A stretch of DNA of 64,000 nucleotides from Liolophura sinensis (lineage: Eukaryota > Mollusca > Polyplacophora > Chitonida > Chitonidae), in NCBI RefSeq assembly GCF_032854445.1, contig NC_088302.1, positions 43,686,645 to 43,750,644 on the forward strand, written 5' to 3'. Below, one piece after another: positions 1,962 to 62,595 of the stretch. The notes below the pieces were generated by a model, which saw only the letters and a program-made list of their open reading frames with translations, was not told the origin of the DNA and did no database searches. The position numbers and the translations under genes were made by a program. How positions within the stretch are numbered: the first letter of the stretch is position 1; the number at the start of each line of letters is the position of its first letter.

Positions 1962-2070
1962 CTATGCATTGCAGCAATCAATTTCTACTATTCCTTGGGG
2001 TACTTCTGCAAACTGATACACCAGCCGCTGGCCATCCACCTTATTCAAAATTCCCCGCGCGTAGTAGTAC
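1962..2070 (-). CDS. Eip74EF: E74 last coding exon: end of ETS domain and stop
   Basis: Preceded on the minus strand by the acceptor TTTTTACCAG (CAG at 2073-2071). The first base completes the Arg codon split by the upstream intron, then 35 codons and TAG (1964-1962). It encodes [15 protein letters not shown] followed by LVYQF: the end of recognition helix 3 with the invariant tyrosines, then beta strands 3 and 4 of the ETS fold. The last residues read [15 protein letters not shown]. That EIDC ending right after the domain matches the insect E74 C-terminus and is the main evidence that this is the protostome form. Drosophila has Gln where this protein has Ala in YYYxRGIL. Confidence 0.93.
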
Positions 2071-2713
2071 CTGGTAAAAATAAAACCCAATCATCAGTCA
2101 TAGAATACATAACAGATTCACAACATTGGCATTCTTCAAATTATCAAACACTTGCAAAAATCTATCCTTCAGTGGTACAGAAAGTCTCCAAGAAAAAGTA
2201 CTCTCCATGGACAAATGATACTTTAATAAACCATTAACCCTTAAAAAAACAAATTCAAAATGGCTGGCTGCCATGTTAGTGGGTCTCTTTGTTGCTTTTC
2301 TGCACAGTGACAGCCTGTGTGTTACCGTTAAGCTATAAACCTATCACAAACTCATTTGACACAATGCAAAAGGAACTCATATCCTTTGTATGAAATTGGT
2401 GTTTTCTCATGAAAAGTTCTCATAATCTCTTAAACACTTGTACCAATTAACCATGGTATAAACATGAATGTATTGTTGTTGTTATATAAGAAATTGTGGC
2501 TCTGATAAAGACATTCAGAAACTGACCTGGCTGGCTACTTTTTGTTGAAATATGTTGTCAGCATGTTAATTAACCATGATTCTTTAAGAATATGTGACTG
2601 ATTATGGCTTTAATAACGAGATTCTTTAAGACTAACGAATCTTAAACAAAGGGTGCTAGTAAGGCATGTACATTCACATATATGGTATTCTTCTAAACAC
2701 AATCTAAACTTAC
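2071..2713 (-). other. E74 intron within the ETS domain
   Basis: A 643-bp intron, donor AAG|GTAAGT and acceptor ACCAG, splitting the Arg codon of MGRALR in phase 2. Nothing else recognisable inside. Confidence 0.8.
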
Positions 2714-2906
2714 CTTAACGCCCTGCCCATTGTTTCGTAATTCATTTCAGGTTTGTTTTTATGCTGGCCCCACAACTTAGACACAGCTTTGGAGTCAACA
2801 AGCTTAAAAATTCCCTTCTCCCTGTTTGTCCACTTGATATACCTTGGGCAGGTGTCTCTGTTTTGTAAAAGTTGAAGCAAGAACTCCCACAAATAGATGG
2901 TACTAC
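2714..2906 (-). CDS. Eip74EF: E74 exon carrying most of the ETS DNA-binding domain
   Basis: Acceptor TCTTGCAG|GT and donor AAG|GTAAGT. Two bases finish a split Ser codon, then 63 codons, then AG of the next Arg codon (193 nt). The translation starts [15 protein letters not shown] and continues through the [26 protein letters not shown] and [15 protein letters not shown] blocks. It holds the three spaced tryptophans of the ETS hydrophobic core (WEF, KW, LWG) and helix 3 with its DNA-contacting arginines. The IYLWEFLL start and [12 protein letters not shown] block are typical of the E74/ELF1/2/4 subfamily, not of ETS1, ERG or PEA3. An intron just before IYLWEF is consistent with the ELF family. 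Confidence 0.97.
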
Positions 2907-3254
2907 CTGCAAGACAAAAGAAAATTTGGGACTGTAACTGTGGTGTACAAGATAACAGTTTATAAATTTTTGATCACCAAAGCAGTTTGTAATTAGATTA
3001 AACTGTGGCTGTATTGCAAAATCTACATGTATGTAGCAAGGCAGCAATTCGCACATATATGTGCAAATAACAGAAGTTTCATGGCATGTAAGCATGTATT
3101 ATCACTGACAGCACAACTGTCTTTCTCTGGGGAATAAAGACATCGAGGGATCACTCCATTCTACCAATCCGACATCTAACACCCAACATTCTATGAACAC
3201 AGCATATTAATATTATTGTGATAAATATACATGTATGTAAAAATGTGAACTTAC

Positions 3255-3314
3255 TTTCTCGTTTCCTTTTAGGTTGATTTATTGGGCAGTCTAAGAGGTC
3301 TTTGGGTTTTCGAC
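3255..3314 (-). CDS. Eip74EF: E74 basic linker exon before the ETS domain
   Basis: A 60-nt exon, too short for a simple ORF scan. Acceptor TCTCTTGCAG|GTCG, donor GAAA|GTAAGT. It adds 2 nt + 19 codons + 1 nt, phase 1 to phase 1. The translation is (G)RKPKDLLDCPINQPKRKRE(S). RKPKD and PKRKRE correspond in place and charge to the basic segment before the ETS domain of ELF1 and E74, and PKRKRE looks like a nuclear localisation signal. The split Ser made with the next exon runs cleanly into STIYLWEF. Confidence 0.88.
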
Positions 3315-3856
3315 CTGCAAGAGAGAAAAGATATGTCCATGACCACTAGCTCTCAATGCTGTTATTTATTTATGTGTAATTCACTGGTGGGTAATGACAT
3401 ACTTTACATGTTTTCACATCTACTAGTATGGGCCAGAGAAGGCCTTTACGACATGTTAAACCCAAATGTATCAGGTATTACACCACATGATGTACACTGA
3501 TTGTATCAGCAATGCACTTCACAAATTGTTGAAATGCTAGGCCTTTCTGCTACTACAGCAGTATTTCCAGGCCTCTTTAAGAGAAAATAATGCACTGATT
3601 TTTTCTAACTACATGTATCTCTTAAGACACTGTATGTACTTTCCAAACATGAGGTGAAGTTCTTAAAACTTCACCTTGTTTATTTATTCAGCACGTATTT
3701 CTTACATATTGAAATGCTACCATATATCAGAATAGTTTTTTTCTTTTGGATGTCAACCTAGAATAAAAGAATATACAGCGCATCAATCTTAATGCCTCCT
3801 TTCGCTGTTCAGATGATGTGCCTGAAAACCTGAAAAGGTTATCATTGTGCGTTTAC

Positions 3857-3985
3857 CTTTTTTACTCTTGTGCTTAAGTGGTGAGTCCGAGGGTGAACCT
3901 GGGCCTGACTCACTTCCACTACTGTAATGCATCACAGAGGAGGGAATGAGGGGGGTAGTGCCACTGCCACTGAACACTGTGTGTT
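3857..3985 (-). CDS. Eip74EF: E74 Ser/Gly-rich linker exon
   Basis: Acceptor TTCTGTTGACAG|AACAC and donor AAAAAG|GTAAAC. 129 nt, 2 + 42 codons + 1, phase 1 to phase 1. It encodes HTVFSGSGTTPLIPSS, then a Ser-rich SSGSESGPGSPSDSP run with several proline-directed phospho-site candidates (SP), and ends PLKHKSKK. The terminal Lys-rich stretch joins to GRKPKD of the next exon to form a bipartite-like basic patch. Probably a disordered linker; no fold is apparent. Confidence 0.85.
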
Positions 3986-4021
3986 CTGTCAACAGAAAAC
4001 ACATTCATTGTATTTCAGTAT

Positions 4022-4101
4022 ATTTGTTTCATTGGTGTTTAATGCCGTACTCTTTTCACTTACTTGATGGTGGCAAGCATCATGGTGGGAGGAAACCTAT
4101 T
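4022..4101 (-). repeat. SINE-A fragment
   Basis: Matches the 3' part of the tRNA-derived SINE family found at 5925, 6625 and 56226: GTTTAATGCCGTACTC, CACTTACTTGATGGTGGC and GGTGGGAGGAAACC. Degenerate, 5' end missing. Confidence 0.6.
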
Positions 4102-4149
4102 TCAGTATATTGCCGATGAATACTGCTCCCATATTTCATAGTTTGATCA

Positions 4150-4186
4150 GTACTCTCTATGTACCTAAAGCGTACGTAGAGAGTAC
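4150..4186. other. 15-bp inverted repeat (hairpin)
   Basis: GTACTCTCTATGTAC (4150-4164), a 7-base loop, then GTACGTAGAGAGTAC (4172-4186). Fourteen of fifteen positions pair. Intronic; function unknown. Confidence 0.8.
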
Positions 4187-5435
4187 ATGTAGCTGAAATA
4201 GATGTCTGTGATTGGTGAACTCTGAGCATAAATGTACATGCTGATTACTTCTTTACCTGCGTTTTACACCTTCTTTCTAGACCTGGAGAACAGGTCAAGA
4301 GCATTGGGGTCTAATGGTATCTTTATATTGTCCAATGCTCTAATATCAAGCACGGCTGTTTTACTTTGACTTTAGAAGAAAAATAACACTACATTCTACT
4401 TTACCAGTAACACCGAATGTACTCACAAATGCATGAATGTATGTGGCTGTGAATGCAATTTCAAATTCATGACCATACAGTTTCCTCACATATAAATATA
4501 TGTAGATATGTAGCCTGCAAAAACTCCAATAAACTAAAAAAAAAAAAGAGAGAAAAACTTAAAGGAAAGCCTCTTTGAATTTGATAGATGCTTTATATAG
4601 AAAAGAAAAGAGAAATTCACCAAAATCATAAGGAAAGCTACAGAAGACCTGCAATGTTCAACAGATGTTCCACTCTGCATATGCAGCTGATTCTATGAAT
4701 ATGTCAATCTGGATTTGAAAGCTAGTGACAGCTAAATGCAATATAGCTAAAGGTTCCTTTCAGTGACAGTATTAGGCCTTTTGAAAAACTGTACCTCTAC
4801 ACCTGTATATAGGTAAACCAGGACACGTCAATGTCTATACAGGTAAGGACTTGTGCTATTCAGAGCCACACCTATGTTTGCTGTGTTCAGTATTAGCTGT
4901 GGTTATCTAGTTCCTTCCCTGCCCACTGTCCGTGTCCTATGTAGGGATATGACTGTCACTACAGGCAGGAACTTACTCCTAAACATGTGCACACAGCCAC
5001 AAAAGCAAAGCCAATCCTGCTAAGCCTTTAACTTTTCACCCATTATGAACTACAGGAAATACGCCATACACATTGGAGAGTCGGAAATGAAGCATATCCT
5101 TCAGTAATGTAACACTCAGGCCTTTTGCCCATCAAAAAAAAAAAAATTTATTTTACTGTAGCTACGTAAATAACCCTACGACTGCTACTGTGGAGTTTAC
5201 ACAGGATTTTGTTTTTAATTTATTTTTGATTTATGTGCACAAGGAAGTAAATCATGTACATGTAGGACTAAACATGAAAGTGACAAGTTTGTAATTACTC
5301 CGATTCATGGTAAATCATTCTGTGTACTGTATAACACAGAATAGGTTACATTGTAGTATTTTAACAGCCTTCATACATCAAGTATAACTACAGCATTAAG
5401 TCAGTATTCAAGGAGAAGCTAACATAACTGGTTTA

Positions 5436-5541
5436 CTCAGAAATTTAAATCATGGTGCCAAACAAAGATTTTCATTAAGTTTTCATCACTCAGAAATTTA
5501 AATCATGGTTCCAAACAAAGATTTTCATTAAGTTTTCATCA
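5436..5541. repeat. 53-bp tandem duplication
   Basis: Two adjacent copies starting CTCAGAAATTTAAATCATGG at 5436 and 5489, differing by about one base. The near-identity indicates a recent duplication. Intronic. Confidence 0.9.
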
Positions 5542-5924
5542 CTGAGATGGGTTCTTAGGAGATCTGTCCATGTTAGACCCAGACAACTTCACCAAATGCA
5601 GCAAATCTAAGAAATTACTGCTTTCTAAACTGTAATGATAATTTTTTTTTATTTTGTCTGTTTTATTTTTGTATGTTGTATCATGTGTACACATCTACCT
5701 GGACTATGAACAATAGTTTCACTACATGTAGGTACATGTACATGTGCATCTTCCGCTGGAATAGAGACAATATAAAGCTATCCACTATCTGATTGGGCAT
5801 CAGTGTTTTTCTTGTGTTCGTTTTACACAGGCTAGGTCAGTTGTGTTTCTCTATCATTAAAGCGGCTAACAGTGAGGCTAACATTCAATTATAACACCTA
5901 TGTATTTGCTGCTGAATTTATCTG

Positions 5925-6145
5925 TCTTGTGTTTTATGCCGGCCTCTTATGGTGAGAGGAAACCGGGCAGTGCCAGGAGGAAACCCACAACCATCTGCAG
6001 GTTGCTGCTTGCCTTCCCACATATGGCTAGAAAGGAAGCCAGCATGGACTGGACTTGAACTCACAGCGAACCCATTGAGAGGTGACAAGCTCCTGGGACA
6101 TTTCATTTTGCTGACACTCTGATCACCTCAGCCATGGAGGCCCCT
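5925..6145 (-). mobile_element. SINE-A, nearly full length
   Basis: Read on the minus strand, it begins with a tRNA-like head (GGCCTCCATGGCTGAGGTGA, then B-box-like GAGTTCAAGTCC) and runs to a conserved tail with GGTTTCCTCTCACC and GCATAAAACAC. Similar copies lie at 6625, 28256, 49234, 53084, 54205 and 56226 in both orientations, which shows it is a dispersed retroposon. The tail normally ends in a short ATAAA-type repeat. Confidence 0.75.
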
Positions 6146-6624
6146 ATTTGATATTGAATATAGTGTGATTTTCTGAGGACAACCAGCCAGAAGTAAATGT
6201 AAATGTATTTTATAATCCAACACGACACCCAAGAGCCTAAGATAGAGAGAGGTTTTTATCAAATTTGAGATTAAAATCAACACAGAATTGAAGCCAGAGT
6301 GGGGCTGATAATGTTACACCTCATTCCCTTTCCTTGCGTTATCAGAGTGCCTGGGAGATGTCAAGGTCTAGTCCTAGATAGAATACAGGTAGTCAGTCAC
6401 ACAATGACTACTCGGACTTTACCAAGCCTACTTCATCATATATGGTCACTAGTAACTGGGGCATGCCGTTTATAACTATAACCAGCCGTCAGATTTTAAC
6501 ACTTAACATATACATGCACAAACATGATTAGGAATGTCATACACTTTTACATGTACAAACCTAGGCTCTGTCCCACCAAGCCACTGAGCACTATTACACT
6601 AACAGTTGATGTTACATGCACCTT

Positions 6625-6790
6625 AATTTTATTTATCTATTTATTTTATTGATGTTTTACCCCATACTTAAGAATATTTCACTTATACGAGGGCAACCAA
6701 CATTATGGTGGATGGAAACCGGGCAGAGCCAGGGGGAAACCCACAACCATCCAAAGGTTGCTGGCAAACCTTCCCACGTACGGCCGCAAG
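6625..6790 (-). mobile_element. SINE-A, 5'-truncated copy
   Basis: Contains the family blocks TTATTTTATTGATGTTTTAC, AAGAATATTTCACTTATACG, GAAACCGGGCAGAGCC and AACCTTCCCACGTACGGCC. The tRNA-like head is missing. Confidence 0.7.
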
Positions 6791-7028
6791 CACTTTAACT
6801 ACCAGTGCCCAAGTCTTTAGCATGTGTTGCCACTGTACATGAAGGTACAATCAATGATGATAGCTATGATACCTCAGCGGATTATGGCTGTGTACACAGG
6901 CATTTTGTCAGAAATGTAGCTCTGTCCATTCGAGACCAATACATGCGTGTATGAATATATTTACATGTCTGCACCACTGGTACAATTCATGTATGCCAAT
7001 TATGAACAACGAGCACATACATGTGTTC

Positions 7029-7062
<34 letters not shown>
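7029..7062. repeat. (AT)n(AC)n microsatellite
   Basis: An AT dinucleotide run passing into a short AC run. Confidence 0.9.
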
Positions 7063-7063
<1 letters not shown>

Positions 7064-8255
7064 GTTTATATATCACGTGAGTGTACTTTATACACCCATA
7101 TACACACATATATGGAGTTGTCCAAATAATAGTGTTATACCCGGTCAAAAACAGGTATTCTTTTTTGAGCGATATGTGCAAACGAAATCTACCGCTACAC
7201 GTCACATGTGACGTGTGTTTCAGCACCCAATACTTTTGGGCCAAATTTCAAAACAGTTGTGGAATTTCACATTTTAATCTTCAGTTATGCATTTTTCTTT
7301 AAAAAGGGCATTACGTATCAAAGCCCCTGGGTCATGTGTACAAGTGGTGAAGCTTTTGAGCAGGAAGAAAAGAAAATTAATTATTTCAAAACCTGTATCC
7401 ATGTACATATATGAACATGTGTATGTACTTGTTGCTCATAATTAGTCGACCTGAATGATAAAAACTCAACAAGGGATAGGTGACCCATAATAAACGTTTA
7501 TCTCCTCAGGTAAAACACGAAGCTTACCCTGCCTCAACGTCAACAACACCACATCGCTTCGCTGCGTAATGTGCAAGTACTATCAGGTGATGCACTAAAC
7601 GTCATGGAAGAGCACCATCCCTGTTTTCTCAAATCCTTGTTATACATGTATGCAAATCACATTCAGTGCTTTGTCAAGATATGAAAGATTATATACATAC
7701 TTCTGCCAGAGCCCTGGGGAGTGGCAGACATAAAATCGAAACACAGATGTGTCGCTTGTGCCTTCTGGAGCACCTAGGTGAACTAACTGTTAACAACATC
7801 TACCACACAAACTCTCTCTCAACCATTCTATCCTTCTAAACAGACAGTGTCATTTCATACAAAAGAAAGTACACATTTCTGACCTAGTTTAATAGCGTGG
7901 CAGCTTAAATGCTGCTTCAAAATGTTTCGAATATCATCTCCAATATTTCCCAAAAATTTTAAAAAAATAAAAATAAAAAGGGACCAAAAATGTTGGTTGG
8001 TTTATTCAGTTTTTTCTACACATTCCAACACTAGTGTCTGTAGGTTTTACTTGATCCACACTCAGCATTGTGCATGTGTTTTTTGATATATAGGCCCAGT
8101 GCTGACATCACACCTGGTCAGATCAAAACATTACAGTTTATGTCCAAAATAGGCCAAGAAATTGAATGTGTACCTGCCTTTAACACGTGCTAGAGGGTTA
8201 AGAGTGGGGTCTAAAATGTAATGACTGTGTATTTTAGCTTGAGCTGTGTGCTTAC

Positions 8256-9020: not shown

Positions 9021-9101
9021 CTTGTAATCGAAGGCGAGCATCGTCAGAGTTGCTGTCCAGATCTGACACGCCACTGTCTGCGGGACTTGGTGGTAAACAT
9101 G
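9021..9101 (-). CDS. Eip74EF: E74 conserved PPSPADSGVSD exon
   Basis: Acceptor GTTGTCTTTCAG|CATG and donor CAAG|GTATAC. 81 nt, 2 + 26 codons + 1, phase 1 to phase 1. The phase-consistent frame reads CLPPSPADSGVSDLDS, then NSDDARLRLQ. PPSPADSGVSD is a hallmark block of E74 proteins; insect E74 has the same words followed by VDSSSS. A different frame is open through this exon and is misleading. SP and the acidic DSGVSDLDS stretch suggest a phospho-regulated degron-like motif (DSGxxS form), an inference only. Confidence 0.95.
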
Positions 9102-15068: not shown

Positions 15069-15200
15069 CTTGGTGATGTAAGTTTAAGATGCCTTGTAAG
15101 AAGGTTTTGTTTTCACTACTGGTACTGGGACTGTCCATACTAAGAAGAGCCTCTGCTGCCACTTGTCTCCCATTGGTCTGCTGCTCCTCACATGCATCCA
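15069..15200 (-). CDS. Eip74EF: E74 AAEALLSMDSP exon
   Basis: Acceptor TGTCTGTTGCAG|TGG and donor CAAG|GTATAG. 132 nt, 2 + 43 codons + 1, phase 1 to phase 1. The translation is DACEEQQTNGRQVAAEALL, then SMDSPSTSSENKTF and LQGILNLHHQ. The AAEALLSMDSP block corresponds to AAEALLNMDSP/MESP of vertebrate ELF1, ELF2 and ELF4, so this exon ties the gene to the ELF subfamily independently of the ETS domain. The block is probably a short amphipathic helix used in protein contact. It joins in phase to the PADSGVSD exon through a split Ala codon. Confidence 0.94.
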
Positions 15201-20387: not shown

Positions 20388-20663
20388 AGTATCGTCTCAT
20401 CATGGTTTTTTTAAAAGTGGTCGGGTAGCCGTTTCCATTGCCTGTACTGGCGGAGCAGCTGGAAGTATCGCTGTACGAATCCTCTGAGTCTCGCCTTGGT
20501 TTTTTCATTGACAAGTCTAGTACTGGTTCATCCGTGTCCATTTCCATCTTAATGTTGAGCTGTGGGGTGGTGAGGAGGTGTCTACTCTGAGGGTAATACT
20601 CCATTGGAGATAGCAGCGGGGACACCGGGCCCAAATGTTCCCTGTCCACCCGGCCTCTCTCTA
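20388..20663 (-). CDS. Eip74EF: E74 regulatory exon with SUMO and CtBP-type motifs
   Basis: 276 nt, 2 + 91 codons + 1, phase 1 to phase 1. Donor TACT|GTAAGT is strong after an unusual T. Acceptor GTTAGCAG|TAGAG is acceptable but has a weak pyrimidine tract. The translation contains ERGRVDREHLGPVSPLLSP, MEYYPQSRHLLTTPQL, then IKMEMD (a psi-K-x-E SUMO consensus with acidic tail), VLDLSMKK (a PxDLS-like CtBP-binding form), a PEST-like DSEDSYSDTSSCSAS run and TTFKKTMMRRY. Together these suggest a repression/modification module. The frame is also open for seven codons upstream of the acceptor, including an ATG at 20682 with a TGA two codons before it, so the exon could start a transcript instead. 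Confidence 0.87.
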
Positions 20664-20900
20664 CTGCTAACATGGTTAACATACTGGCTCAGCCACCACC
20701 AACTGTTTAACACAAATCTGGGTCACACTATATAATATGTCCTGATGTACCCCTGGCCAAGGGAAGTCTGGTGGGTAGAATCTGCTCTGATTAGCCGGAA
20801 CTTGACTGCCTGTCAAATACACAGCCTTATACACACAGCGGTCCTCAGTCTTAGCCGCTGCAGTCTGGGGCTTCCCAACTGTCACATTCGTTAAGGTAAC
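20664..20900 (-). other. Possible upstream extension or alternative start of the regulatory exon
   Basis: After a possible acceptor TTTTGTTCAG (20902-20901), a frame stays open for about 74 codons to a TAA near 20678. Its composition is protein-like (for example FYPPDFPWPGVHQ), but it is not the frame of the exon below, and a possible donor at 20750 leaves the wrong phase. It may be 5' UTR of an internally initiated transcript starting at ATG 20682 or 20673, or non-coding sequence. I do not recognise it. Confidence 0.25.
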
Positions 20901-23224: not shown

Positions 23225-24075
23225 GACAATGCTGGAAAGATGAATATCTGGTTAATTACATAACGCTGGAAATATGTACATCTGGTTAATTACATAATGC
23301 TGGAAACCTACACATCTGGTTAATTACATAATGCTGGAAAAATACACATCTGGTTAATTACATAACGCTGGAAACATACACATCTGGTTAATTACATAAT
23401 GCTGGAAACATACACATCTGGTTAATTACATAATGCTGGAAACATACACATCTGGTTAACTACAAAATGCTGGAAACATACACATCTGGTTAACTACAAA
23501 ATGCTGGAAACATACACATCTGGTTAATTACAAAATGCTTGAAACATACACATAGGGTTAATTACATAAAGCTAAAAACATACACATTTGGTTAATTACG
23601 TAATGCTGGAAACATGCACATCTGGATAATTACATAAAGCAGGAAACATGCAAATGTGATAACAACACTGGAAAAATGAACACTTAGTTAATTACACATA
23701 GTCGGAAACATGCATACCTGGTTAATTGCACAACAATTGAAACATGAACATCTGCTTAATTACATAAATAATGCAAGAAATGTGTGTACACCTGTTTACA
23801 GCTGCATGATGCTGGAAACATGCTTAAAAATGACCTGGAAACATGCATGTACAATGCTGGAAACATGCCCACCTGGTCAAATAGACAACACTGGAAACAT
23901 GCATGCTTGGTATTAACACAATGCTTGAAACATGCACACCTGGTCAAATAGACAACACTGGAAACATGCATGCTTGGTATTAACACAATGCTTGAAACAC
24001 GCACACCTGGTCAAAAAGACAACACTGGAAACATGCATGCTTGGTATTAACACAAGGTTGGAAACATGCACACGT
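23225..24075. repeat. 34-bp minisatellite evolving into a 67-bp higher-order array
   Basis: From about 23225 to 23720 there are about 14 copies of a 34-bp unit TGCTGGAAACATACACATCT then GGTTAATTACATAA. After a degenerate stretch, 23850-24075 shows nearly identical copies of a 67-bp unit that is two diverged 34-mers (ATGCTTGAAACATGCACACC and CACTGGAAACATGCATGCTT halves). Units share the core CTGGAAACATGCA. Short frames in it are by-products of the repeat. Confidence 0.92.
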
Positions 24076-24269
24076 GGTGAACAACCCAGCTGAATGGATG
24101 GACAGATAGACTCCTCTCTTTTTTCCAAAGATACGACGATATACAATAGGAATAAAATGCCAGGTTTTCATGCACTAGCACCAGGAAATGCATTTACATA
24201 AAGCTTTATATAGTGGGGCTAAATAATTGTGCTTCCTCATATTTTACATGGAAAACTTAGGGATTTGTT

Positions 24270-24456: not shown

Positions 24457-24723
24457 TACATGTACTGTACACTTCCAATGACGGCCCAACAATTATTAAC
24501 TACTGTGTTAGTCAAGAAACATATCCATGAGGTTCTAACAATTCTGTATCAACTTGTGCAAGCACTTGCTCATGGGGATATATTCTTAATGTATCTGAAC
24601 TGGTTTTCTGCACACAGCACAGAAAACCAGTTTTACACTAGATAACAGAATGATTTTTTTGCTTATTTCGCTGTTGTTGAATGTCACTCTCAGGAATTTT
24701 TCACTTACACAATGGTTATCCCG

Positions 24724-25040
24724 TTTTATGTGTGGAAGGAACCAGAGTGGTAAACCATCAACCATTGGTAAGTTACTGCTGAACCTTCACATGTGTTATA
24801 TATTTGCATCTGCTGTACCAGAGTTGTTGACAAGTGATCTATCCAGTTTTATGTGTTGAGGGAACAAGAGTGGTAAACCATCGACCTTTGGTAAGTTACT
24901 GATGAACCTTCACATGTGTTATATATGTGCATCTGCTGTACCAGAGTTGTTGACAAGTGATCTATCCAGTTTTATGAGTGGGGGGAACCAGAGTGGTAAA
25001 CCATTGGCCTTTGAGAAACTACTGACAAACCTTCGCATGC
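24724..25040. repeat. 123-bp tandem repeat, about 2.6 copies
   Basis: Copies begin TTTTATGTGTGGAAGGAACC at 24724, TTTTATGTGTTGAGGGAACA at 24847 and TTTTATGAGTGGGGGGAACC at 24970. Each continues AGAGTGGTAAACCAT, and the first two run through CACATGTGTTATATAT and ATCTGCTGTACCAGAG. The third is truncated. Confidence 0.93.
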
Positions 25041-27871: not shown

Positions 27872-27934
27872 CTTTGTCCACTGACCGGGGGTTTACACTG
27901 ATGCTAAATTCATCATCCATTTCAACAAAGTCAT
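27872..27934 (-). CDS. Eip74EF: E74 acidic micro-exon
   Basis: A 63-nt exon, acceptor CCCTATAAATGCAG|AT and donor ACAAAG|GTGTGT. 2 + 20 codons + 1, phase 1 to phase 1. The translation is (D)DFVEMDDEFSISVNPRSVDK. The acidic EMDDEFSISV core resembles in position and character the acidic DDDDDITLTVE stretch that precedes AAEALL in ELF1. The split Asp (G + AT) is formed equally by either upstream exon (41986 or 37880), and the outgoing G makes Val with the next exon. No motif alone identifies it; the phase closure and composition do. It may be constitutive or cassette. Confidence 0.72.
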
Positions 27935-37739: not shown

Positions 37740-38310
37740 TTGTCACTTCCTGGTATTGAGTACTCAGGAGCGAGCGCTTATCTGCAGCTGGCAATCCTTG
37801 ATATTTTTCCGATGTGTTAGGAAAAGAACTACAGACCTTAGTTGCGACCGAAACCCTATCCTAAATTGCTTGCATTTACCTGCCTGAAGCAGAACATCGA
37901 GATTATTCTGCCGCTTCATCTTCGCCTTCTCGGCCATATTGGGCATCTCCCGTAACCATGCGCACGAATACTACCCTGGTGAGAAAGCCGGAAGCGATAG
38001 ACACAGAAAATCTAGTACGCTGAACTATCTCGGTTACACGACAGAAGTAGGTCACCATTGATAAACCGTTCACTCCATGTTCGCTCAAAAGTATTAAATT
38101 CTGACAAGAAGACTTGCTTTATTGAGAACTTCTGCGTATTGTTACTGTGCAGTGCGAAATCACCTAGGTTAAGTGGTACAGGGTCGATGCGGAAGCGCTT
38201 GGAATGTTTACCACATGTGAGGATTCCCCTGGCACGTTGCCAACACAGCGGGCGCTGTCAGTACTTGCACGTTTCACTGGATTTATAGGGCACGACTGTG
38301 TAACGGGTTA
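37740..38310 (-). promoter_or_regulatory. CpG-rich promoter-like patch of the short E74 form
   Basis: CpG dinucleotides are dense here (for example GCGGGCGCTG, CTTCGCCTTCTCGGCC, GATGCGGAAGCGC) against CpG-poor flanks, and the patch surrounds the first exon at 37946-37880. It contains an ETS-type site CCGGAAG at 37988-37994, with further AGGAAGTG-type sites nearby at 37712-37720 and, inverted, at 37744-37753. No TATA box is evident. Promoter status is inferred from CpG density and position. Confidence 0.6.
37880..37946 (-). CDS. Eip74EF: E74 alternative first coding exon (short form)
   Basis: ATG at 37946-37944, 22 codons plus one base, donor CAGGCAG|GTAAAT. The peptide is MPNMAEKAKMKRQNNLDVLL then QA. 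An in-frame TAG lies 10 codons upstream, so the start is inside this exon; ATG at 37937 is a second choice. The outgoing phase 1 matches both the micro-exon (giving Asp) and the 20.6-kb exon (giving Val). With the common exons it would give about 413 residues. The short basic KAKMKRQ segment recalls the basic end of the long-form exon (RRKQKLKKKRQ). It lies in a CpG-rich patch, as expected for a true 5' end. This is analogous to E74B, by inference. Confidence 0.72.
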
Positions 38311-38746
38311 ACTTGACGGGGTTATGCGAATTTAAGAAATTAAAAAAAAGGTTTTTTTTTTGTTTGTATTATTGTTATTTTTTATTTTTATGATTTTTTT
38401 TTCTTTACACTGGTTAAATTAAGGATGAATAATGTTACAATGAATGAAGTATATACGTAATGGTTCAAACCAGGACAATTAGAGAGTATTTATATTGAGA
38501 GACCCATTATTGTACACTCTCCATGGCAAGCCATTTAAATCCATTAATTCCATGCTCATCAGTGAAAAATAATGAAATTCGTGTTATCCAATGAATGCTC
38601 TGTACGAGCAAAATAGCTTGAGTACATAAGTTAGTACATACACACAAATTCTTCAAAAGGTTTTAAGTAGCTTAATGTGCATGTAAGACAGCTGAACTTA
38701 CTAACCTTACATGTTTTCATCCATGTTACAAGAGGTGGTTAAGTTT

Positions 38747-41985: not shown

Positions 41986-42481
41986 CTGACTTTGACAGCA
42001 GGAGTTGTCTTTTCTTTTTGAGTTTTTGCTTTCTGCGTTGCTGGTAGGACATGCCTGGTTTCTGAAGGGTGTTTTGAGGTGGGGCTTCATTGTTCCAGGT
42101 AAGCTCGTCCTCCTCACCTTCCTCTGACCCAGCTTGTGACAGGCTGTCGTCTAAGATCACAGCAGGCAGGGAGAAGTCTTTATGGAATGTGTCTAGGGAA
42201 TGTGGTTTAGTGGAGAAGGAGCAATGGTCCAGGTCGGAATGGGGCCAGCTGTCTTCCTCCAAGTCAGACAGTCTCTCGCTGACATCCATGCGTAAATCCT
42301 GGTGAAATCTCTGACACGGCTGGCTTTCTCCAAACTCATCGCAGGGCAGATTGAGCGAGGAGTGGGCCACCTCACTCCAGTCCATGTCCCACTCTCGATG
42401 AAGACCATGCAGTTGGTCTGTAAAGTTAAATTCGGCCAGGATCTTTGGTTGGTGAACAACGATCACAGATGGACCTGAATT
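41986..42481 (-). CDS. Eip74EF: E74 long-form N-terminal exon (acidic, then basic)
   Basis: Strong acceptor (TTTTTTTTCTCTCTCTCTCTACAG) and donor TCAG|GTAGGT. 496 nt: 165 codons plus one base, phase 0 in and phase 1 out. It starts NSGPSVIVVHQPKILAEFNF, which recalls the FPAVIVEHVP block of vertebrate ELF1/4. The middle is acidic (RLSDLEEDSWPHSDLD; SEEGEEDELTW), as expected for an activation domain, and the end is strongly basic (RRKQKLKKKRQLLL), a likely nuclear signal. The outgoing G forms Asp with the micro-exon or Val with the 20.6-kb exon. The same strand, phase closure and the VIV block support membership in E74; a nested separate gene is less likely. Confidence 0.78.
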
Positions 42482-44063
42482 CTGTAGAGAGAGAGAGAAA
42501 AAAAATTACAGTGAGCGACTTACAGCTCTGTTGAAATGACAAATACCACCATTTCAACCATTTTGAATGTTATGTATGATTCGCTGGCATTCAATGTACG
42601 TTTTGTTTTATACACAGCTGTAGATGTCGATGTAGCTAAATCTTAATTTTCGTGTGATGAATTGCGTTTATAGTGTCTTCAGGAAGACTTTGCCTTAATT
42701 ATTATGACCAGGAGACCTGCACTGATCACCATTTGTTAATAAGTCTACTTGCTCATTACAATTAACTTGTGTTTATATTTTATATCATTCATACATTTTT
42801 TCAATGTTAATTAGTATTTTCAATCCATTTTTTGTTATACTGTAGCCTTTGTGCAAACATGGTCAGTTCACGTTGGGAGTAGCTATGGCAACTCTGCCAA
42901 GCAATCCAAACATGGACTAGTATGTAAACCCTTTTTAGACTTCACTCACACTAGTGAAATATGCACATGAAATAAACAGACATACAACTGTCAAGACATG
43001 TATCTTGAGTCCTTATTTGATATCATCAACAATTTGAAGACCGGATCCCCTGGTGACAATTGTCACACACTAATAGAGACTAATCACACATTGTTTTTAG
43101 ACAAGGGGATGGTAATGCAGACTAAGCTCTTTGTATTAAGGTTATAAAATCTGTTTGACATTCTAATTTATTCACTTTAAATTGATCAAAATTACTCAAG
43201 TTCATCACAACATCTGCTGACAAGAACAGTGAAAAGTTTCGAAAACTAATACGGGCAATAATATATGTCCTGAGATCAGTTAGCCATATTCCCATCTTTC
43301 CTTCCACATTAACCCATGCATCTGAAGGCTTAGCCGCAGGGAAGTATAAAGTAAATCTCACATCTAATGGTACAACAATATGCAGCCTCGTACAAACATC
43401 ATTTGGTTCTTTTCTTGATTTTGTTTTCAGGCAAGAGGTATTATCTCTACAAATCAAAGTCACCTTTATCCGTATAGTTTCTGGACTCGGGCATTTGTGC
43501 TCTTTACGTACATTACTATCATTATCTTTGCAGATATTTATCATTCTGTTGGCAAAGAAACACTATTGGTACTTGTCTCGCAATGCAGAACAAGAGCATA
43601 AGGGGGCATAGCTCTCCACACACAAATTACTGCTAATCCTAGACTAGCACAAAATGTGGTTATTCTCTTCATTTAATGAAGAAAGCAATTTATTTCATCT
43701 GAACATTTCTATCAGTTCATGCTGTTTACTGGTTCAGCATTTCTATGAAGTCAAAATTCGTTCGCAAATGGGTATATGACTGAATGACACCACCAAAGAT
43801 AAAATAAGATATGTTTAGTAAAACAGACATGTATGTCATCTTTGTTCTTTACTATTTTCACCATAATACAAATAAGTAGGCCCCTATTATTAGGCTTCTA
43901 TAGAAAGGTTTCCAGAAATGGTTACCATGTCAACAGAGCATGTATGTCTTGGAAATAACATGGATTCAGATGGAAATAGCTGTTTAATGTTCAGTATATT
44001 TTTAAGCCAATTTATTTGAAGACACTAACTAACCAATAAACAGATATATCATATTACACATAT

Positions 44064-47441: not shown

Positions 47442-47562
47442 CTTTTTTCGAGGTCCATACGGAATGTTGATAAACGGATCTGCCCTCAGTGTGCAGTCAG
47501 GCGACTCCAATGTCAGTCCAACTGCAGCCATAATGCAGTGAGTGCTCTGTGGTACTCCAGTC
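47442..47562 (-). CDS. Eip74EF: E74 candidate first coding exon (long form)
   Basis: Acceptor GGTTTAATTGGCAG|GACTGG and donor AAAAAAG|GTGAGC define a 121-nt exon. The first ATG (47531-47529) has a good Kozak context (ATTATGG, A at -3, G at +4) and opens 30 codons: MAAVGLTLESPDCTLRADPF then INIPYGPRKK, ending in phase 0. That is the phase required by the exon at 42481, giving GPRKK-NSGPSVIVV. The MAAV start echoes vertebrate ELF1, but such a short match is weak. With the downstream exons the long form would be about 586 residues. It could also be a first exon reaching further upstream, since the frame stays open past the acceptor. Confidence 0.6.
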
Positions 47563-47973: not shown

Positions 47974-49233
47974 ATGATATCCTACTGGGAAAATGTAACA
48001 TTAAAAGCACCAGAAGAAATATTTTATGGCATATGTTTGCCTTTAAAAATATGTTTTTTGAGATGAAATTTATGGTCGCATACATAGATGTACATATAAC
48101 ACTATGTAAGGCCATTGCAAAATGCTAAGAGCTCTGATATACTCTGTACAGTGCACTACACAATGCAATTTATGAAGAGCAATTCGCAATACATGTATTA
48201 AAAAGAACACAACAATGCATCTATGTTGCTGCGCATACAGATGTCTGCTGATAGGTGTCACAGCACAGATTCAAAATGATCCCGCTACAGGCTATGACAA
48301 TGGCTGATTCCCATCAGTATTGTTAACCTTATGATGCACATCAAGGTCTTCACCCATCCTAATGTCTTACTTATTTGATGGACAATTTTCGTTATTATCA
48401 AGAATATGTCATTTGTATGTGACGGCACCGGAGTTAAATATGATACCGTACCACTGGGAGATGCAGAACAGAGTTAAAATGTGCACCCATGTTTTTATAC
48501 GTTTTTCATTTATACATGGAACTCGTGCCTTATAGTGCCACATTTTATTATACTGATGTTTACAGGTGAAAGCTGTTCACTTGGGTTATCACCGAATTGT
48601 AATGATCACGTGGGGGACGTGTATGTTGGCGCGTTCTGCTGCCAGTGCCATATGTGTCTGCTGACTAGGTTATCTCCCTTTGTTCAGAGTTGAAAACAAT
48701 GGTCGCAACTCTACATGATTCGCCTATGGATGGGTATTCTGCACTGAATCTGCAAGATAAATTCGTTGCTGGGTTATTCAGTGACGTAATACAGAAATAT
48801 ATGGTGTCAGTATAACTGCCATATTGGATGAGGTGTCTATAGTGGTTACTGACCCCATATCATTCTGTATCCATGACCGAGCAAACATGTAGCAAACAGT
48901 AAGTACATCCCTGGTCATATTCTTTTGTACATGGAACTATACATCAGTGTATTTTGTGAGTATTCTTCAACCTACCTACCTAGCTATATCACACAACATA
49001 TACTTTATACCATACAATACTTGGAACTCAAATACCATATGTTCTAATATACGCACGCGCCCCAGTCACGTGTAATAATACACCAGTGGTATACATTACA
49101 CAGCATATGTGTCTCTATATTTGTATTTAATTTTTTAATCTGGGAATTATTTTCAATGTAATGAACATGTCACTTCATACGTTACTAATCCTTCAAGCTG
49201 GGTATACACTATAGCTGTAATTCATATAAATTC

Positions 49234-51690: not shown

Positions 51691-51698
51691 TAACAATA

Positions 51699-53310: not shown

Positions 53311-53319
53311 ACTTATACA

Positions 53320-54300: not shown

Positions 54301-54308
54301 CTGCAACT

Positions 54309-56486: not shown

Positions 56487-56806
56487 ATCTATGTGTGTAT
56501 ACAACAACCATCTTGAACAGAAGACTACATGGTCAAACTGTCCAATTATCCATTCAGTCAACACAACAACATACCCAGTCTTCAAACAGGCTCAGAGAAA
56601 TAAACACACATTAAAAGCTTCCAGCTGTTCTCTATCAACAACTACATGTGCAGTCTACAGACCTGTTAATGACAGCATCTTGAGAGTGCACTCATTTCTA
56701 TGGCAATGCACGTTAGTATAAGTAGCAGTAGTTTGCTGCCATGGAAATTTTATTGTGAGAATATACCATGTCTAAACAATAGGTTGTATAACCTGTGACC
56801 TATGCC

Positions 56807-56836
56807 ATGCTCATAGAGTCAAGGTTCTATGAGCAT
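56807..56836. other. 11-bp perfect inverted repeat
   Basis: ATGCTCATAGA (56807-56817), 8-base loop, TCTATGAGCAT (56826-56836). Intronic or upstream; function unknown. Confidence 0.75.
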
Positions 56837-57263
56837 ATCAAGAACTGAGCATCTATATAGTCACAGCTGACATTGTTGATCAACAGCTAGATGTCCATGA
56901 TAATCACAACATCACCACGGACATCTTCACAGTCACAACACCTGTCCTCATGCATACCTGATTTATATAGATCTCTTATTTCTAGTGGCCTCTAGTCCAC
57001 CTGAGGAATATCGGGTGGAACATCTGATTGCTGCCGACCTGTTATTAAATGAGTTTACAATTTCCTTCATGCCTGTTTGAGGGCATGAAGAGGTTTTACA
57101 ATGTAATTAAATATCTATATACTTTGTTTACAGGATATGGTCCCATTGAATTAAAAGTTAGAGTTGCATATTTCAGTTTCAGAGCTTGTTAATCTAATCA
57201 TAGCATCAAAATGATGGTTTGATAGGTACATGTAATTACATGTGGTATGGCAGTAAAACTTGT

Positions 57264-59308
57264 CCACTGACAAGGTGGAAATACAAGATGGTAAGACGGC
57301 GTGACATGGTGGTAGGACAGGGAGACAAGGTAGTAAGATAGGGCGACAAGTGGAAGGACAAAGTGACAAGGTGGTAAGACAAGTTGACAAGGTGGTCAGA
57401 CCAGATGACAAGGTGGTCAGACCAGGTGACAAGGTGGTCAGACCAGGTGACAAGGTGGTCAGACCAGGTGACATGGTGGTCAGACCTGATGACAAGGTGG
57501 TCAGACCAGGTGACAAGGTGGTCAGACCAGGTGACAAGGTGGTCAGACCAGGTGACATGGTGGTCAGACCTGATGACAAGGTGGTCAGACCAGGTGACAA
57601 GGTGGTCAGATCAGGTGACAAGGTGGTCAGACCAGGTGACATGGTGGTCAGATCAGGTGACAAGGTGGTCAGACCAGGTGACAAGGTGGTCAGATCAGGT
57701 GACAAGGTGGTCAGACCTGATGACAAGGTGGTCAGACCAGGTGATAAGGTGGTCAGACCAAATGACAAGGTGGTCAGACCAGGTGACAAGGTGGTCAGAT
57801 CAGGTGACAAGGTGGTCAGACCAGGTGACAAGGTGGTCAGATCAGGTGACAAGGTGGTCAGACAAGTTGACAAGGTGGTCAGACCAGGTGACATGGTGGT
57901 CAGACCTGATGACAAGGTGGTCAGACCAAATGACAAGGTGGTCAGACCAGGTGACAAGGTGGTCAGACCAGGTGACAAGGTGGTCAGACCTGATGACAAG
58001 GTGGTCAGACCAGGTGACAAGGTGGTCAGACAAGTTGACAAGGTGGTCAAACCAGGTGACATGGTGGTCAGACCTGATGACATGGTGGTCAGACCAAATG
58101 ACAAGGTGATCAGGCCAGGTGATAAGGTGGTCAGATCAGGTGACAAGGTGGTCAGACCAGGTGACATGGTGGTCAGACCAGGTGGCATGGTGGTCAGACC
58201 AGGTGACAAGGTGGTCAGATCAGGTGACAAGGTGGTAAGACAAGTTGAAAAGGTGGCCAGACCAGATGACAAGGTGGTCAGACCAGGTGACATGGTGGTC
58301 AGACCAAATGACAAGGTGATCAGACCAGGTGACATGGTGGTTAGACCAGGTGACACGGGGGTAAGACAGGGTGACCAGGCAGTAGGACAGAGTGATAAGG
58401 TTGTAAGGAGGATGGTAGGCCAATGTGACATGGCAGTAAGACAGGGTGACAAGACAGTAAAATAGAGTGACATGGTGGTAGGACAGGGTGACAAGATGGT
58501 AAGAAAATGTGTCAAGGTGGTAGGACATGGTGACAAGTGATAGGACAGAAGGATGAGGTGGTAATACAGTGTGACAAGGTGGTAGGACAGAGTAACAAGT
58601 TGGTAGGACATTGTGATATAGTGATAGGGCAGAGTGACAAGCTGGTAGGACGTTGTGACCAGATGGTAAGACAGAGTGACAAGGTGGGAGGACAGAGACT
58701 CCTGAATGTAGGACATTGTGACAAGGTGGAAGGATATTGTGACATGACAGTAAGACAGAGTGATAAGGTGGTAGGACAGAGTGACCCAGATGGTAGGACA
58801 TGGAGACATGGTGGTAGGAGAGAGTGACAAAGCAATATGACAGGGTGACAAGGTGGTAGGACAGGGTGACAAAACAATACGACAGAGTGACAAGGTGAAA
58901 GGACGGTTTGACAAGGTGGTAGGACAGTTTGACAAGGTAGTAGAACAGGGAGAAAGTATGGTAGAACAGGGTGACAAAGCCCATAGGACAGGGTGATAAG
59001 GTGATAGGACATTGTGACAAGGTGATTGGACGATGTGACAAGATGGTAGGAAAGAGTGACAAGATGGTAAGATAAAGTGACAAAGTGGTAGGACATCTTG
59101 ACATTGTGGTAGGATATTGTGACAAGGTGGTAGGACATGGTGACAAGTTGGTAGAACAGGGTGACAGGGTAGTAAGACAGGGTGACAAAGCAATAGGACA
59201 GCTTGACAAAGTGGTAAGACAGGGTGACAATGTGGCAAGGTAGAATGACAAGGTGGAAGGACATTGTGACAAGATGGTAGACAACAATGGTATTACAAGG
59301 TGGTAGGA
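57264..59308. repeat. 21-bp minisatellite, about 2 kb
   Basis: About 97 copies of a 21-bp unit. The core (about 57361-58350) is homogeneous, GACAAGGTGGTCAGACCAGG T, with variants at the GACAAG/GACATG, CCAGGT/TCAGGT/CTGATG and CAAGTT positions. The outer right arm (58350-59308) is older and degenerate, GTGACAAGGTGGTAGGACAG G. Since 21 is a multiple of three and the unit lacks stops in several frames, long frames of 241-695 codons appear on both strands (heptads such as DKVVRPG and TTLSPGL). These have no start context, splice link or codon signal of a gene. Confidence 0.97.
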
Positions 59309-61305
59309 TATGCAATTGCAAGTCAAAAAATGCAAACTCATGCAGAGTACCATTGCAGGCATTCAATCTTTTTTTCCCCACATGCCTGACAGTGTTCGGC
59401 TGCAGGCAGTCTGTGTAATGTAGTATGGTGCAGCTGTGCTTTCTGTCCTACAAGAATAATACCTGTATACTATTACCCCCAGTTCAAGAGGTACAGCTTT
59501 CAGAACTGTGAATAATACATGAAAGGTGCACACAGAACTGGATGTTACCTACACGCTTGACTATTTTTCTTTTTTCTCTCTGCCTGCACACGCAGGGACA
59601 ACCTGTGAGGTGAAGAGACTAGGTCAGTATGACACCGGTAAAAGCCTATGTACAAGGCTTGAACAAAACCATGCGCACCTGAGAAAGCAGTTCATGCCTC
59701 ACTATGACCAGCCATCTATAACAAATCTGAAACGGTAGCAAACACAGATAACATGAGAAAGTATCCGCAAATAAAGTGATTGGACTGTACCTGCTTCGAT
59801 CAGCTAACACCTGAGAGATCAGGTGTACGTATACATGTATATTCTGCTACAACCTGATATACTGGGAATTGTGACTTACATAAAACTGTTTTTAATACAT
59901 TGTGTGCACGCATGCATGTATGACCTACATACCATGTATGATAGATACACCAGTTCATATACAATCATGTATACCACTCAATCCCACTGGCTACTTGAAA
60001 CTATACCGCTTGGTATTTTGAAACACCTATGTAGAAACAGCACAAAGCCCACCTGGTGTTATGTTACCTGTATTTCAGCTCAACAGCTTATCTCTGGGGA
60101 ATTTGTTCCTAAGTTTTCAAAGTGAAAGCAATCACAGAAGCAAGTAAGCATTACTGGAAAAGACCAATGAGAACTATATCTGAAAACCACACACAAATTT
60201 TTGCCACGGGTGTTAAATGCATTTAAACATTCAATCAGATTCTGGTATTTAATGTTGAGGCAGTTTGTTTATGTGCCTGAGACATGAACATTTCTAAACG
60301 TAAACATAATAAAACTTATCCCAAGAGTTATAACAAAAGTAAAAGAACTGTTATATTTGTGATAGCACTGTCATCCCATATTATCAATATAATCCACAAA
60401 GCCAAGGGTCAAGGTTCTTTCCACAAATGCCTACTTCATTTTTTGTTTATTTAAATCTGAACTTCTTATCTAGATGAGTTTATGCAATAATATCAAACTG
60501 GTATGTTATTATTTCTGTTAAAATAATAACAAACGTTCCTTTATTTAACTGAAAGATTAAGAACACCTTGCATGGTAAAATGGAGCTATAATTCCAGTAC
60601 AGTTATGTATATGTTTAGTTGTCACACTTCAATCCATGCACACCTGGGCTTTCAGTATTTTTTGAGGTTTGATGGCTTGTTTGTTTCAGCAGACTTGTCA
60701 GACTTTATATCATTTGATACTGACAAGGGCAAAGGTTCTCAACACCAGCATGCCAGTACAGTAGCGCACACCTCACACTTTAGCTGGTTACTAGTAATCC
60801 ATCCACCGTTAAACTGTGTATTGTTAATGCAAATGTTTTTTGATATGAAGACCATGCAGCCAACTGTATGCCGCATTTAAGCCAGGGATGCAGCCAGCTG
60901 ACTGACACAAAAATGTTCAGCATACCTGATGATGTCACAGATGACACCGCAATCAGCGGTACAAATAATTCTTTCTTACGCAAATGACAAATGCTACTCA
61001 TAGAACTCATTACTGGAATGTAGCTTTATACAGAACACATCAACAAGGGCAAACACACTGGGTCACCTAGTAAAGTATGTGTACATAGAAACTAACAGAC
61101 CTAATTGTTCACATGTCCTAAGTAGCCATGAATGTATAATTATAAAGTCACTGATCAAGCAGTGCAATTGTTAACACTTGCCAAGAATTAATTTGCCTGA
61201 GCTTTGCTACAACTATAGAAATATGTCAATACAATAGTCTACATACATGTATGCCTACTGTATTGTATGTACTCTATGATAAGCTATTAAGTATCATTAT
61301 AATAT

Positions 61306-61308
<3 letters not shown>

Positions 61309-61358
<50 letters not shown>
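61309..61358. repeat. (AT)n microsatellite
   Basis: About 25 AT units. Confidence 0.96.
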
Positions 61359-61361
<3 letters not shown>

Positions 61362-61546
61362 TATTCATGTACCAGTACAGAGACAACATTCTGTTTGGCG
61401 TGATGATTATAATTTCCATATGCGCAGTATTACAGATTAAAACATGTAGTCATGCAATGTACCGTTACTTTGGTAGAACAGATACACCAATACATTTATA
61501 TTAACCATGGCAAGGTTATACTTTAGGCCTATACATACATGTACAC

Positions 61547-61776
61547 TACCCTATTTGTTCTAATTTCTGGGACACCTCATCTGCTCTTTTTATCCAGTAT
61601 ACATGTAATTGTAGCAGGAATATTTAGTTCTTTATTCTCATAGGGTTAGACCATTAAATGAACAACATATCGGTACTCACATCTTTACTTTTCCAAAAAG
61701 CTGGAAAAAGAAATGTAATATTCTGCTTTCAGCACTACTTATATCTGTCCCAAGAATTTGAAGAATTAGGCTAGAT
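61547..61776. mobile_element. Small TIR element, family C
   Basis: TACCCTATTTGTTCTAATTT at the left and AATTTGAAGAATTAGGCTAG at the right are imperfect inverted repeats. Shares GGGACACCTC, ACATCTTTACTTTTCCAAAAA and AGAAATGTAATATT with 51522-51690. Confidence 0.68.
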
Positions 61777-62331
61777 ATGGAGTTAGCTTTGTGTAGATTC
61801 ATGATAAACTGAAAAACTACAGTATTTGTAACAAGAAAACAGTAATTAATTCATTCTCGGCTTCCGTAATGTTGACTAACCTACAAAGGGCCTACATAGT
61901 CTACTTAAATATTTCATATATAAAGGCACATCCTGTTTCCAATTCCTGAACACCCTAGATAACTTACAGGCGCAGGTTGCGCATATACGAATGTATGTAT
62001 GTTCATAGTATAAATATTAGGCCTACAGTAGTCTATGTACGCGTAGCTACGGCTAAACACATGTAAACAGTCTGAGGTTCAGGGCTGGACGTATGCAGAT
62101 GTATCTATAAATGTTTCAACTGGTCAGGGTTTAGGAATATCGTCTGATATCATCACACCGTCACGAGCAGTCACGACTAAGCACAGTGACTCACCACGCT
62201 AACCTAAATGCAGTGCAATACTCAACTACACGAAGCCTTCATGTAGCTGTCACTTTCTGTTTACAAAAGCCGTTTGCAATGACCTCAAATAGAGTCTGAA
62301 AAATTGGATATCCCATCAATTAAAATCTTAC

Positions 62332-62595
62332 CTGATTAGAAAATGCTTCCAGGTGGCGTTCCTTTGGCTGCGGGTTGAGGTGGGGAAAACACAACAGAAA
62401 CGGAGTTTGACAAAAGCTTGGGTTCCGCCCCGCAGTGGTCACTCGACTCCCAGCAAGATGTGGTGAACTGTAATAGAGGCCTTGAGCAACCACAACAACA
62501 ACAACTCTGTTCTCGGTCCAACTGGTTGTGGAAATAAAGCCTCTGATAGCCCGATTACTGCACATCCAAGTCTGATCACACAGTCTCAAGGCCAT
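62332..62595 (-). CDS. Distal E74 5' exon; coding status uncertain
   Basis: A clear donor AATCAG|GTAAGA ends a relatively GC-rich, CpG-containing segment, which suggests a first exon. A frame from ATG 62595 is open for 88 codons to the donor in phase 0, the phase the 42.5-kb exon accepts, so a direct splice would extend the N-terminus by 88 residues. The peptide (starting MALRLCDQTWMC, with a run of six Val) has no family match and does not look like an ETS-factor N-terminus, and its splice to the 47.5-kb exon would not be in frame. I favour 5' UTR with an incidental open frame. The transcription start is probably between 62.6 and 62.8 kb. Confidence 0.4.

Follow-up and report, generated by a model that had tools for sequence, protein, structure and literature searches.

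The window analysed here, a 64,000-nucleotide stretch of Liolophura sinensis contig NC_088302.1, carries on its minus strand an ETS gene that runs from about 62.7 to 1.96 kb and that is, as judged from its sequence, an E74/ELF gene of the ELF1/2/4 subfamily, in agreement with the first-pass annotation. The two exons encoding the ETS domain are unambiguous (Pfam PF00178, Ets, 1.8e-34). Of 58 sequences listed in a comparison with the PDB, ELF2 (3e-51) and ELF1 (1.4e-47) match best, followed at a distance by ETS homologous factor (1.5e-25), and the domain is nearer to the ELF1/2/4 kind than to other ETS groups. A search of viral contigs for relatives of the ETS exons confirmed none. The features of the gene are given below in the direction of transcription; donor ranks are among 4404 minus-strand GT sites, acceptor ranks are among 3733 sites, and a slash within a sequence marks an exon junction.

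62260..62759, minus strand: distal promoter-like CpG cluster (21 CpG per 500 bp, observed/expected 0.71) and candidate 5' UTR exon ending at the donor at 62332
47442..47562, minus strand: candidate long-form exon with a start codon at 47531 (MAAVGLTLES...); acceptor rank 202, donor rank 8
41986..42481, minus strand: acidic long-form exon (E42), phase 0 in and phase 1 out; acceptor rank 3, donor rank 10
37828..38327, minus strand: internal promoter-like CpG cluster on the short first exon (29 CpG per 500 bp, observed/expected 1.03)
37880..37946, minus strand: first coding exon of the short form (E38), MPNMAEKAKMKRQNNLDVLLQA/G, phase 1 out; donor rank 42; best match to the ELF2B 19-mer
27872..27934, minus strand: small candidate exon of 63 nt, acidic and open, phase 1-1; acceptor rank 321, donor rank 31
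20388..20663, minus strand: candidate exon (E20) with VLDLSMKK, phase 1-1, 276 nt, open; weak acceptor (rank 896), donor rank 145
15069..15200, minus strand: shared exon (E15), V/DACEEQQTNGRQVAAEALLSMDSP..., phase 1-1; acceptor rank 148, weak donor (rank 383)
9021..9101, minus strand: shared exon (E9), CLPPSPADSGVSDLDSNSDD..., phase 1-1; acceptor rank 48, weak donor (rank 433)
3857..3985, minus strand: shared exon, phase 1-1, from its open frame and splice-site scoring
3255..3314, minus strand: shared exon with GRKPK and KRKR, a basic stretch N-terminal to the ETS domain; acceptor rank 1
2714..2906, minus strand: first ETS domain exon
1962..2070, minus strand: second ETS domain exon and stop codon; the protein ends directly after the domain with ...VEIDCCNA

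The exons that the first-pass annotation had assembled stand, but two common exons, E15 and E9, had been overlooked. The human and fly sequences used for comparison were provisional and only partly checked, the ELF2B 19-mer for length only. E9 is the top match in the window to the middle region of the provisional Drosophila E74A sequence (E 5.5e-07), and E15 is the top match for all four provisional vertebrate N-termini, with weak E-values calculated without composition adjustment (ELF1 0.021, ELF2A 0.85, ELF2B 0.069, ELF4 0.64). The 27.9-kb exon and E20 found no homology support in the sequence comparison; the former would belong to the long form and perhaps to the short form too, and E20 could alternatively begin a protein at in-frame ATGs shortly upstream. 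E42 and E38 do end in phase 1 at GT donors, as had been claimed, and their proposed joins to 27934 or 20663 stay open to the stop codon at 1962. This is, however, weak evidence for those joins, because every junction from E42 or E38 into the first ETS exon is phase 1, and frame alone cannot tell which exons are joined. Splicing from 20388 directly to the acceptor at 3985 would create a stop codon (T/AA).

Drosophila-type E74 features are present, with the fly sequence again provisional. As in Eip74EF, the ETS domain lies at the extreme C-terminus, unlike in ELF2, which extends past it, and the PPSPADSGVSD segment of E74A occurs in the window gene. Identity to E74A over the two ETS exons is 85% and 79%. 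Residues 1–150 and 241–420 of E74A gave no convincing match to the N-terminal exons of the window. The proposed layout of the gene likewise resembles that of Eip74EF, in which two units (E74A and E74B) with differing N-termini have a single ETS end; in the fly, E74A induces and E74B represses (PMC2040218). Our limited literature search returned nothing relevant on E74 isoforms in molluscs or on E74 in Lophotrochozoa.

The second point of comparison is vertebrate ELF2, which also has long- and short-form 5' ends (ELF2A/NERF-2 and ELF2B/NERF-1) with a common ETS domain. The published study describes ELF2A and ELF2B as products of alternative promoters that oppose each other, ELF2A activating and ELF2B repressing; ELF2A itself has two promoters, P1 and P2, and the 19 residues unique to ELF2B are required for its antiproliferative effect (PMC5371273). 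The predicted short form of the window gene similarly has a unique start of about 19 residues that ends in a similar peptide, and the sequence after the ELF2B junction resembles E15. E15 and a PAVIVE-like motif are also points of likeness to ELF1 and ELF4, whose provisional long N-termini were compared. The long-form N-terminus of the window gene is far longer than that of ELF2. No match to Pfam Elf-1_N (PF12310) was obtained at E up to 10 with two models without E15 and two N-terminal models with E15, whereas the provisional ELF1, ELF2A and ELF2B sequences match this family at 1.9e-45, 1.3e-40 and 3e-10.

The resemblance of E38 to ELF2B was assessed in several ways. Counted from its second ATG (37937), E38 encodes 19 residues, and its end, NNLDVLLQA/V, resembles NQLDLLIRA/V of the provisional ELF2B sequence, flush at the phase-1 junction; the conserved core comprises 9 residues. 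When anchored at the junction, E38 scores 28 against the provisional 19-mer; the next best of 700 candidates on the minus strand reaches 13, and the best of 622 on the plus strand reaches 18. A score of 28 was attained by 7 of 100000 peptide shuffles. Shuffled 19-mers attained it somewhere among the candidates in 74 of 5000 trials on the minus strand (1.5%) and 134 of 5000 on both strands (2.7%), so the match of the short exon alone is only moderately significant. E38 and E15 taken together reach a local score of 64 against provisional ELF2B, attained by none of 20000 shuffles (maximum 48), with E15 contributing part of it. Plain tblastn with an ELF2B 20-mer placed the E38 segment fifth in the window (E 2.4); with a 57-residue ELF2B query, E38 was absent among the matches listed, apart from an unrelated 4-residue match. 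An NCBIfam search with the short protein gave no match. Window and comparison peptides sought as strings in the literature were not found, and a limited search on ELF2B/NERF-1 in invertebrates, or alongside Drosophila E74, returned nothing relevant.

Two readings of this resemblance have to be weighed. The short form could be the counterpart of Drosophila E74B and of protostome origin, its likeness to ELF2B being convergent or due to chance. Fly E74 likewise consists of two units with unique N-termini and a common ETS C-terminus, one inducing and one repressing, and the frequency with which shuffled 19-mers match equally well leaves room for coincidence. However, the match to the provisional 19-mer stops precisely where the phase-1 junction lies, and the exon after it resembles the continuation of ELF2B; we consider this reading distinctly improbable. 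The Drosophila-style logic invoked by the first-pass annotation persists as a long acidic form, a short form and a common ETS end, but the parallel that can be tested for the short form is ELF2B, which appears to be the closest among the vertebrate ELF and fly E74A sequences compared. That the short form would lack the acidic N-terminal exon, as had been suggested, is supported by the sequence.

The distribution of CpG bears on where transcription might start. In the window as a whole, CpG is depleted (observed/expected 0.35), with TpG/CpA at 1.38 and GpC at 1.03. SINE-like repeats, perhaps of a molluscan kind, are present; exact-pattern scans for them in prokaryote and viral collections gave no hit. 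An Rfam search of the window returned a tRNA as its sole match. Among 63501 windows of 500 bp, the median is 5 CpG and the 99th percentile 20. The cluster on E38 is the top of all these windows, and the cluster on the distal exon is joint second among non-overlapping peaks. These positions suggest two promoter-like sites in the gene, at 38 and 62.5 kb. It is highly improbable that E38 is a chance open reading frame within a CpG-rich regulatory element of a gene with a single N-terminus: the exon is short, at 22 codons, but the strongest CpG peak of a low-CpG window lies on it, and both its match to the ELF2B 19-mer and the combined score with E15 argue against coincidence.

CpG-rich stretches within genes need not be promoters, and a good acceptor-like site (score 5.7) lies upstream of E38 at 37975, so that the 38-kb exon could be part of a transcript starting further upstream. 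There would then be a single distal promoter, with the 38-kb exon spliced from an upstream non-coding exon and the CpG cluster representing an enhancer or another unmethylated region. We regard this as quite unlikely, the 38-kb peak being the strongest in the window. An in-frame stop codon is located between 37975 and MPNMAEK, and the short protein would start in the 38-kb exon even under such an arrangement.

The first-pass annotation had counted three or more candidate 5' ends, which the CpG landscape does not establish as separate promoters: the strong intragenic peaks sit at 38 kb and at 62.5 kb, and an acceptor-like site is present at the 47.5-kb exon. CpG over this exon does not exceed 11 per 500 bp, a count attained by 10.7% of windows; unlike in ELF2, the exon itself has no strong CpG peak. 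A weaker peak at 48379–48878 (16 CpG, a count attained by 2.7% of windows) makes a further start upstream of the exon possible. Three or more promoters, with an additional start near 48.4–48.9 kb or past 63.4 kb in the manner of ELF2A P2 (exon II), would accord with this peak, with another at the window edge (63484–63983, 21 CpG) and with the two promoters of ELF2A itself. The 48.4-kb peak is nevertheless below the 99th percentile and ends 0.8 kb short of an exon that carries its own acceptor-like site, and we judge such an arrangement unlikely.

The 47.5-kb exon and the donor at 62332, which had been proposed to mark further 5' exons, are present in the sequence, with strong donors (rank 9 for 62332), but a single distal 5' end followed by an internal exon is the easier interpretation. 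No acceptor scoring above 4 is found in 62900–62332. The frame of the ATG at 62595 runs into a stop codon in the 47.5-kb exon when spliced there and is open only if spliced directly to the 42-kb exon; translation from this ATG via the 47.5-kb exon was rejected on account of that stop. E42 is acidic (29 D+E versus 17 K+R, net −12). Near its start, PSVIVVHQP resembles the provisional ELF1/2/4 motif PAVIVExVP, its score ranking second among 72002 stop-free 10-mers and first on the minus strand; 9 of 2000 column-shuffled motifs reached this score inside E42.

We consider it reasonably likely that this E74/ELF gene has two promoters with the logic of ELF2A/ELF2B, yielding a long activator-like and a short repressor-like protein. 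The open exons, their frames, the CpG peaks and the sequence resemblances are direct observations, from which we infer that the promoters are active, that the exons are spliced as proposed and that the two forms have opposing functions. The long protein, made from the distal promoter (about 62.5 kb), would begin in the 47.5-kb exon and include the acidic 42-kb exon. The internal promoter (about 38 kb) would give a short protein whose first 19–22 residues end in NNLDVLLQA and whose first exon would be spliced to the common 15.2-kb exon, perhaps via the 27.9- and 20.6-kb exons. With the ETS domain common to both, the two proteins should recognise identical sites; the long form would most likely be an activator, and the short form most likely its competitor and a repressor. 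The N-terminal peptide of the short form could act as a docking motif (LDVLL, hydrophobic-x-x-hydrophobic-hydrophobic).

A transcriptome paper on a sea cucumber notes a single elf gene in sea urchin that is homologous to human elf1, elf2 and elf4, and cites the ELF2B study (PMC6992634). A start of the ELF2B type may be older than the divergence of protostomes and deuterostomes. The earlier suggestion that the promoter layout is older than insects or arose twice is thereby recast as a stronger claim about an ELF2B-type start, although it is unproven. It is plausible, if short of probable, that the bilaterian ancestor had an activator/repressor pair of starts, from which both E74A/E74B and ELF2A/ELF2B descend, and that the internal promoter and the ELF2B-specific repressor peptide (N-x-L-D-h-L-h-x-A, ending at a phase-1 junction) have persisted from before that divergence. 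Should the short start prove homologous to that of ELF2B, insect E74 and vertebrate ELF2 could owe their opposing isoforms to a single inheritance rather than to two separate inventions, and the repressor peptide of 19 residues would be of sufficient age for its partner to be sought by comparison.

On sequence evidence, the window carries a minus-strand E74/ELF gene. The nearest solved structures to the joined short protein are human ELF2 (3e-51) and ELF1 (1.4e-47), followed by the next ETS protein at 1.5e-25. The window protein ends directly after its ETS domain, as fly E74A presumably does. Both this C-terminus and a PPSPADSGVSD segment resemble the presumed fly sequence and hint at a protostome source, on which any great age of the ELF2B-type start described below would depend. 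The exons listed in the first-pass annotation are present with usable splice sites, but the set was incomplete, having overlooked two shared exons, E15 and E9:

2906-2714 and 2070-1962, minus strand: ETS exons (Pfam Ets, 1.8e-34)
9101-9021, minus strand: E9, encoding CLPPSPADSGVSDLDS; the window's top match for what we take to be the middle region of fly E74A (5.5e-07)
15200-15069, minus strand: E15, encoding V followed by DACEEQQTNGRQVAAEALLSMDSP

E15 is the window's top match for all four presumed human ELF N-termini tried, with weak E-values (0.021, 0.85, 0.069 and 0.64, computed without composition adjustment). Among 3733 acceptors, those of E15 and E9 come 148th and 48th, and their donors rank low (383 and 433 of 4404, scored with assumed weights). 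Models including both exons encode 542 (long form) and 256 (short form) residues, each with a single stop. Every boundary from the acidic 42-kb exon (E42, 42481-41986) or the first coding exon of the short form (E38, 37946-37880) into the first ETS exon is in phase 1; therefore, all six exon combinations tried are open, and frame is uninformative about which exons join. The earlier proposal that long- and short-form exons join in frame thus holds as an open reading, but not as evidence for particular junctions. No homology support was found for the candidate exons at 27.9 kb (27934-27872) and 20.6 kb (20663-20388). The latter region (20388-20690, minus strand) has in-frame ATGs just upstream of the acceptor, and its VLDLSMKK segment resembles what we take to be a CtBP-binding motif; this exon might start a further form.

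E42 is acidic (net -12) and contains, after its first three residues, PSVIVVHQP, which resembles the presumed PAVIVExVP motif of ELF1/2/4. This match ranks second of 72002 stop-free 10-mers in the window and first on its own strand, and 9 of 2000 column-shuffled motifs scored as well inside E42. Counting against this resemblance, Pfam Elf-1_N gave no match at E up to 10 in the window N-termini scanned, whereas the presumed human N-termini do match.

The short form, judged by its predicted start, resembles vertebrate ELF2B. The ELF2B start, which we take to be 19 residues ending in NQLDLLIRA and followed by V, is paralleled by E38 read from its second ATG: also 19 residues, ending in NNLDVLLQA, with V formed across the phase-1 junction with E15. 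The junction-anchored score of E38 against this presumed 19-mer is 28, compared to runners-up of 13 among 700 minus-strand and 18 among 622 plus-strand candidate first exons. Shuffling the window peptide reached 28 in 7 of 100000 cases; a stricter test, in which the query was shuffled and run against every candidate, reached 28 in 74 (minus strand) and 134 (both strands) of 5000 trials. E38 plus E15 gives a local score of 64 against ELF2B, to which E15 contributes part, reached by 0 of 20000 shuffles. In plain tblastn, the E38 segment is only fifth with the presumed ELF2B 20-mer (E 2.4) and is not listed with a longer ELF2B query. No report of an invertebrate start of the ELF2B type turned up in a limited literature search. 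According to PMC5371273, vertebrate ELF2A, an activator, starts at P1 or P2, while ELF2B, a repressor, starts at P3 and has 19 unique residues required for its antiproliferative effect.

The window is CpG-poor (o/e 0.35), with TpG/CpA in excess (1.38) and normal GpC (1.03), which we read as a methylated genome. The highest CpG density per 500 bp lies on the short first exon (37828-38327, 29 CpG, o/e 1.03). The next peaks, with 21 each, are at 62260-62759, on the distal exon (a candidate 5' UTR exon, donor 62332), and at the window edge (63484-63983, o/e 0.87). The edge peak could be another promoter or belong to a neighbouring gene; no Pfam family matches its ORF (63603-63989). A tRNA gene lies close to the distal exon, on its upstream side:

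62919-62990, plus strand: tRNA-Gln(CTG) gene

A CpG cluster alone is no proof of a promoter. Because peaks sit on the short first exon and the distal exon, with a maximum of only 11 over the 47.5-kb exon (47562-47442; 10.7% of 500-bp windows reach as many), the pattern favours two promoters, the 47.5- and 42-kb exons being putative internal exons of the distal transcript. A stretch on the coding 42-kb exon (42166-42665) has 15 CpG. Three or more 5' ends had been proposed. Besides the two promoter-like CpG sites, a third start may, with lower probability, lie near 48.5 kb: the fourth peak (48379-48878, 16 CpG in 500 bp, o/e 0.78) stops 0.8 kb short of the 47.5-kb exon on its upstream side, and ELF2A likewise has a second promoter, P2 (PMC5371273). 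In another reading, E38 is joined to an upstream transcript through an acceptor-like site at 37975; an in-frame stop upstream of the E38 start means that the short protein would begin in E38 even then.

A minisatellite (57283-59284; 47.9 copies of a 42-bp unit, or 21-bp units) has a unit length that is a multiple of three and hence long ORFs (713 aa); the Baculo_PEP_C hit that it gives in Pfam (5.6e-11) probably reflects the repetition itself. The intron that separates the 27.9-kb exon from the 20.6-kb exon holds tandem arrays of 34-, 67- and 123-bp units (23228-24078 and 24717-25039). A SINE-like core, TATGGTGGGAGGAAACC, has nine copies within 3 mismatches, against 0.10 expected:

4081, 5948, 6704, 28332, 36128, 49327, 53228, 54280 and 56393: SINE-like core copies

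Under the two-promoter arrangement, both forms would bind ETS sites; the long form would activate through its acidic part, and the short form would occupy the same sites and repress. The LDVLL peptide of the short form, whose counterpart in ELF2B is presumably LDLLI, perhaps docks a partner. In fly, E74A and E74B share a common ETS C-terminus and have unique N-termini (PMC9225820), E74A inducing and E74B repressing (PMC2040218). According to PMC6992634, human elf1, elf2 and elf4 have just one homologous elf gene in sea urchin, which makes one ancestral gene with both starts plausible.
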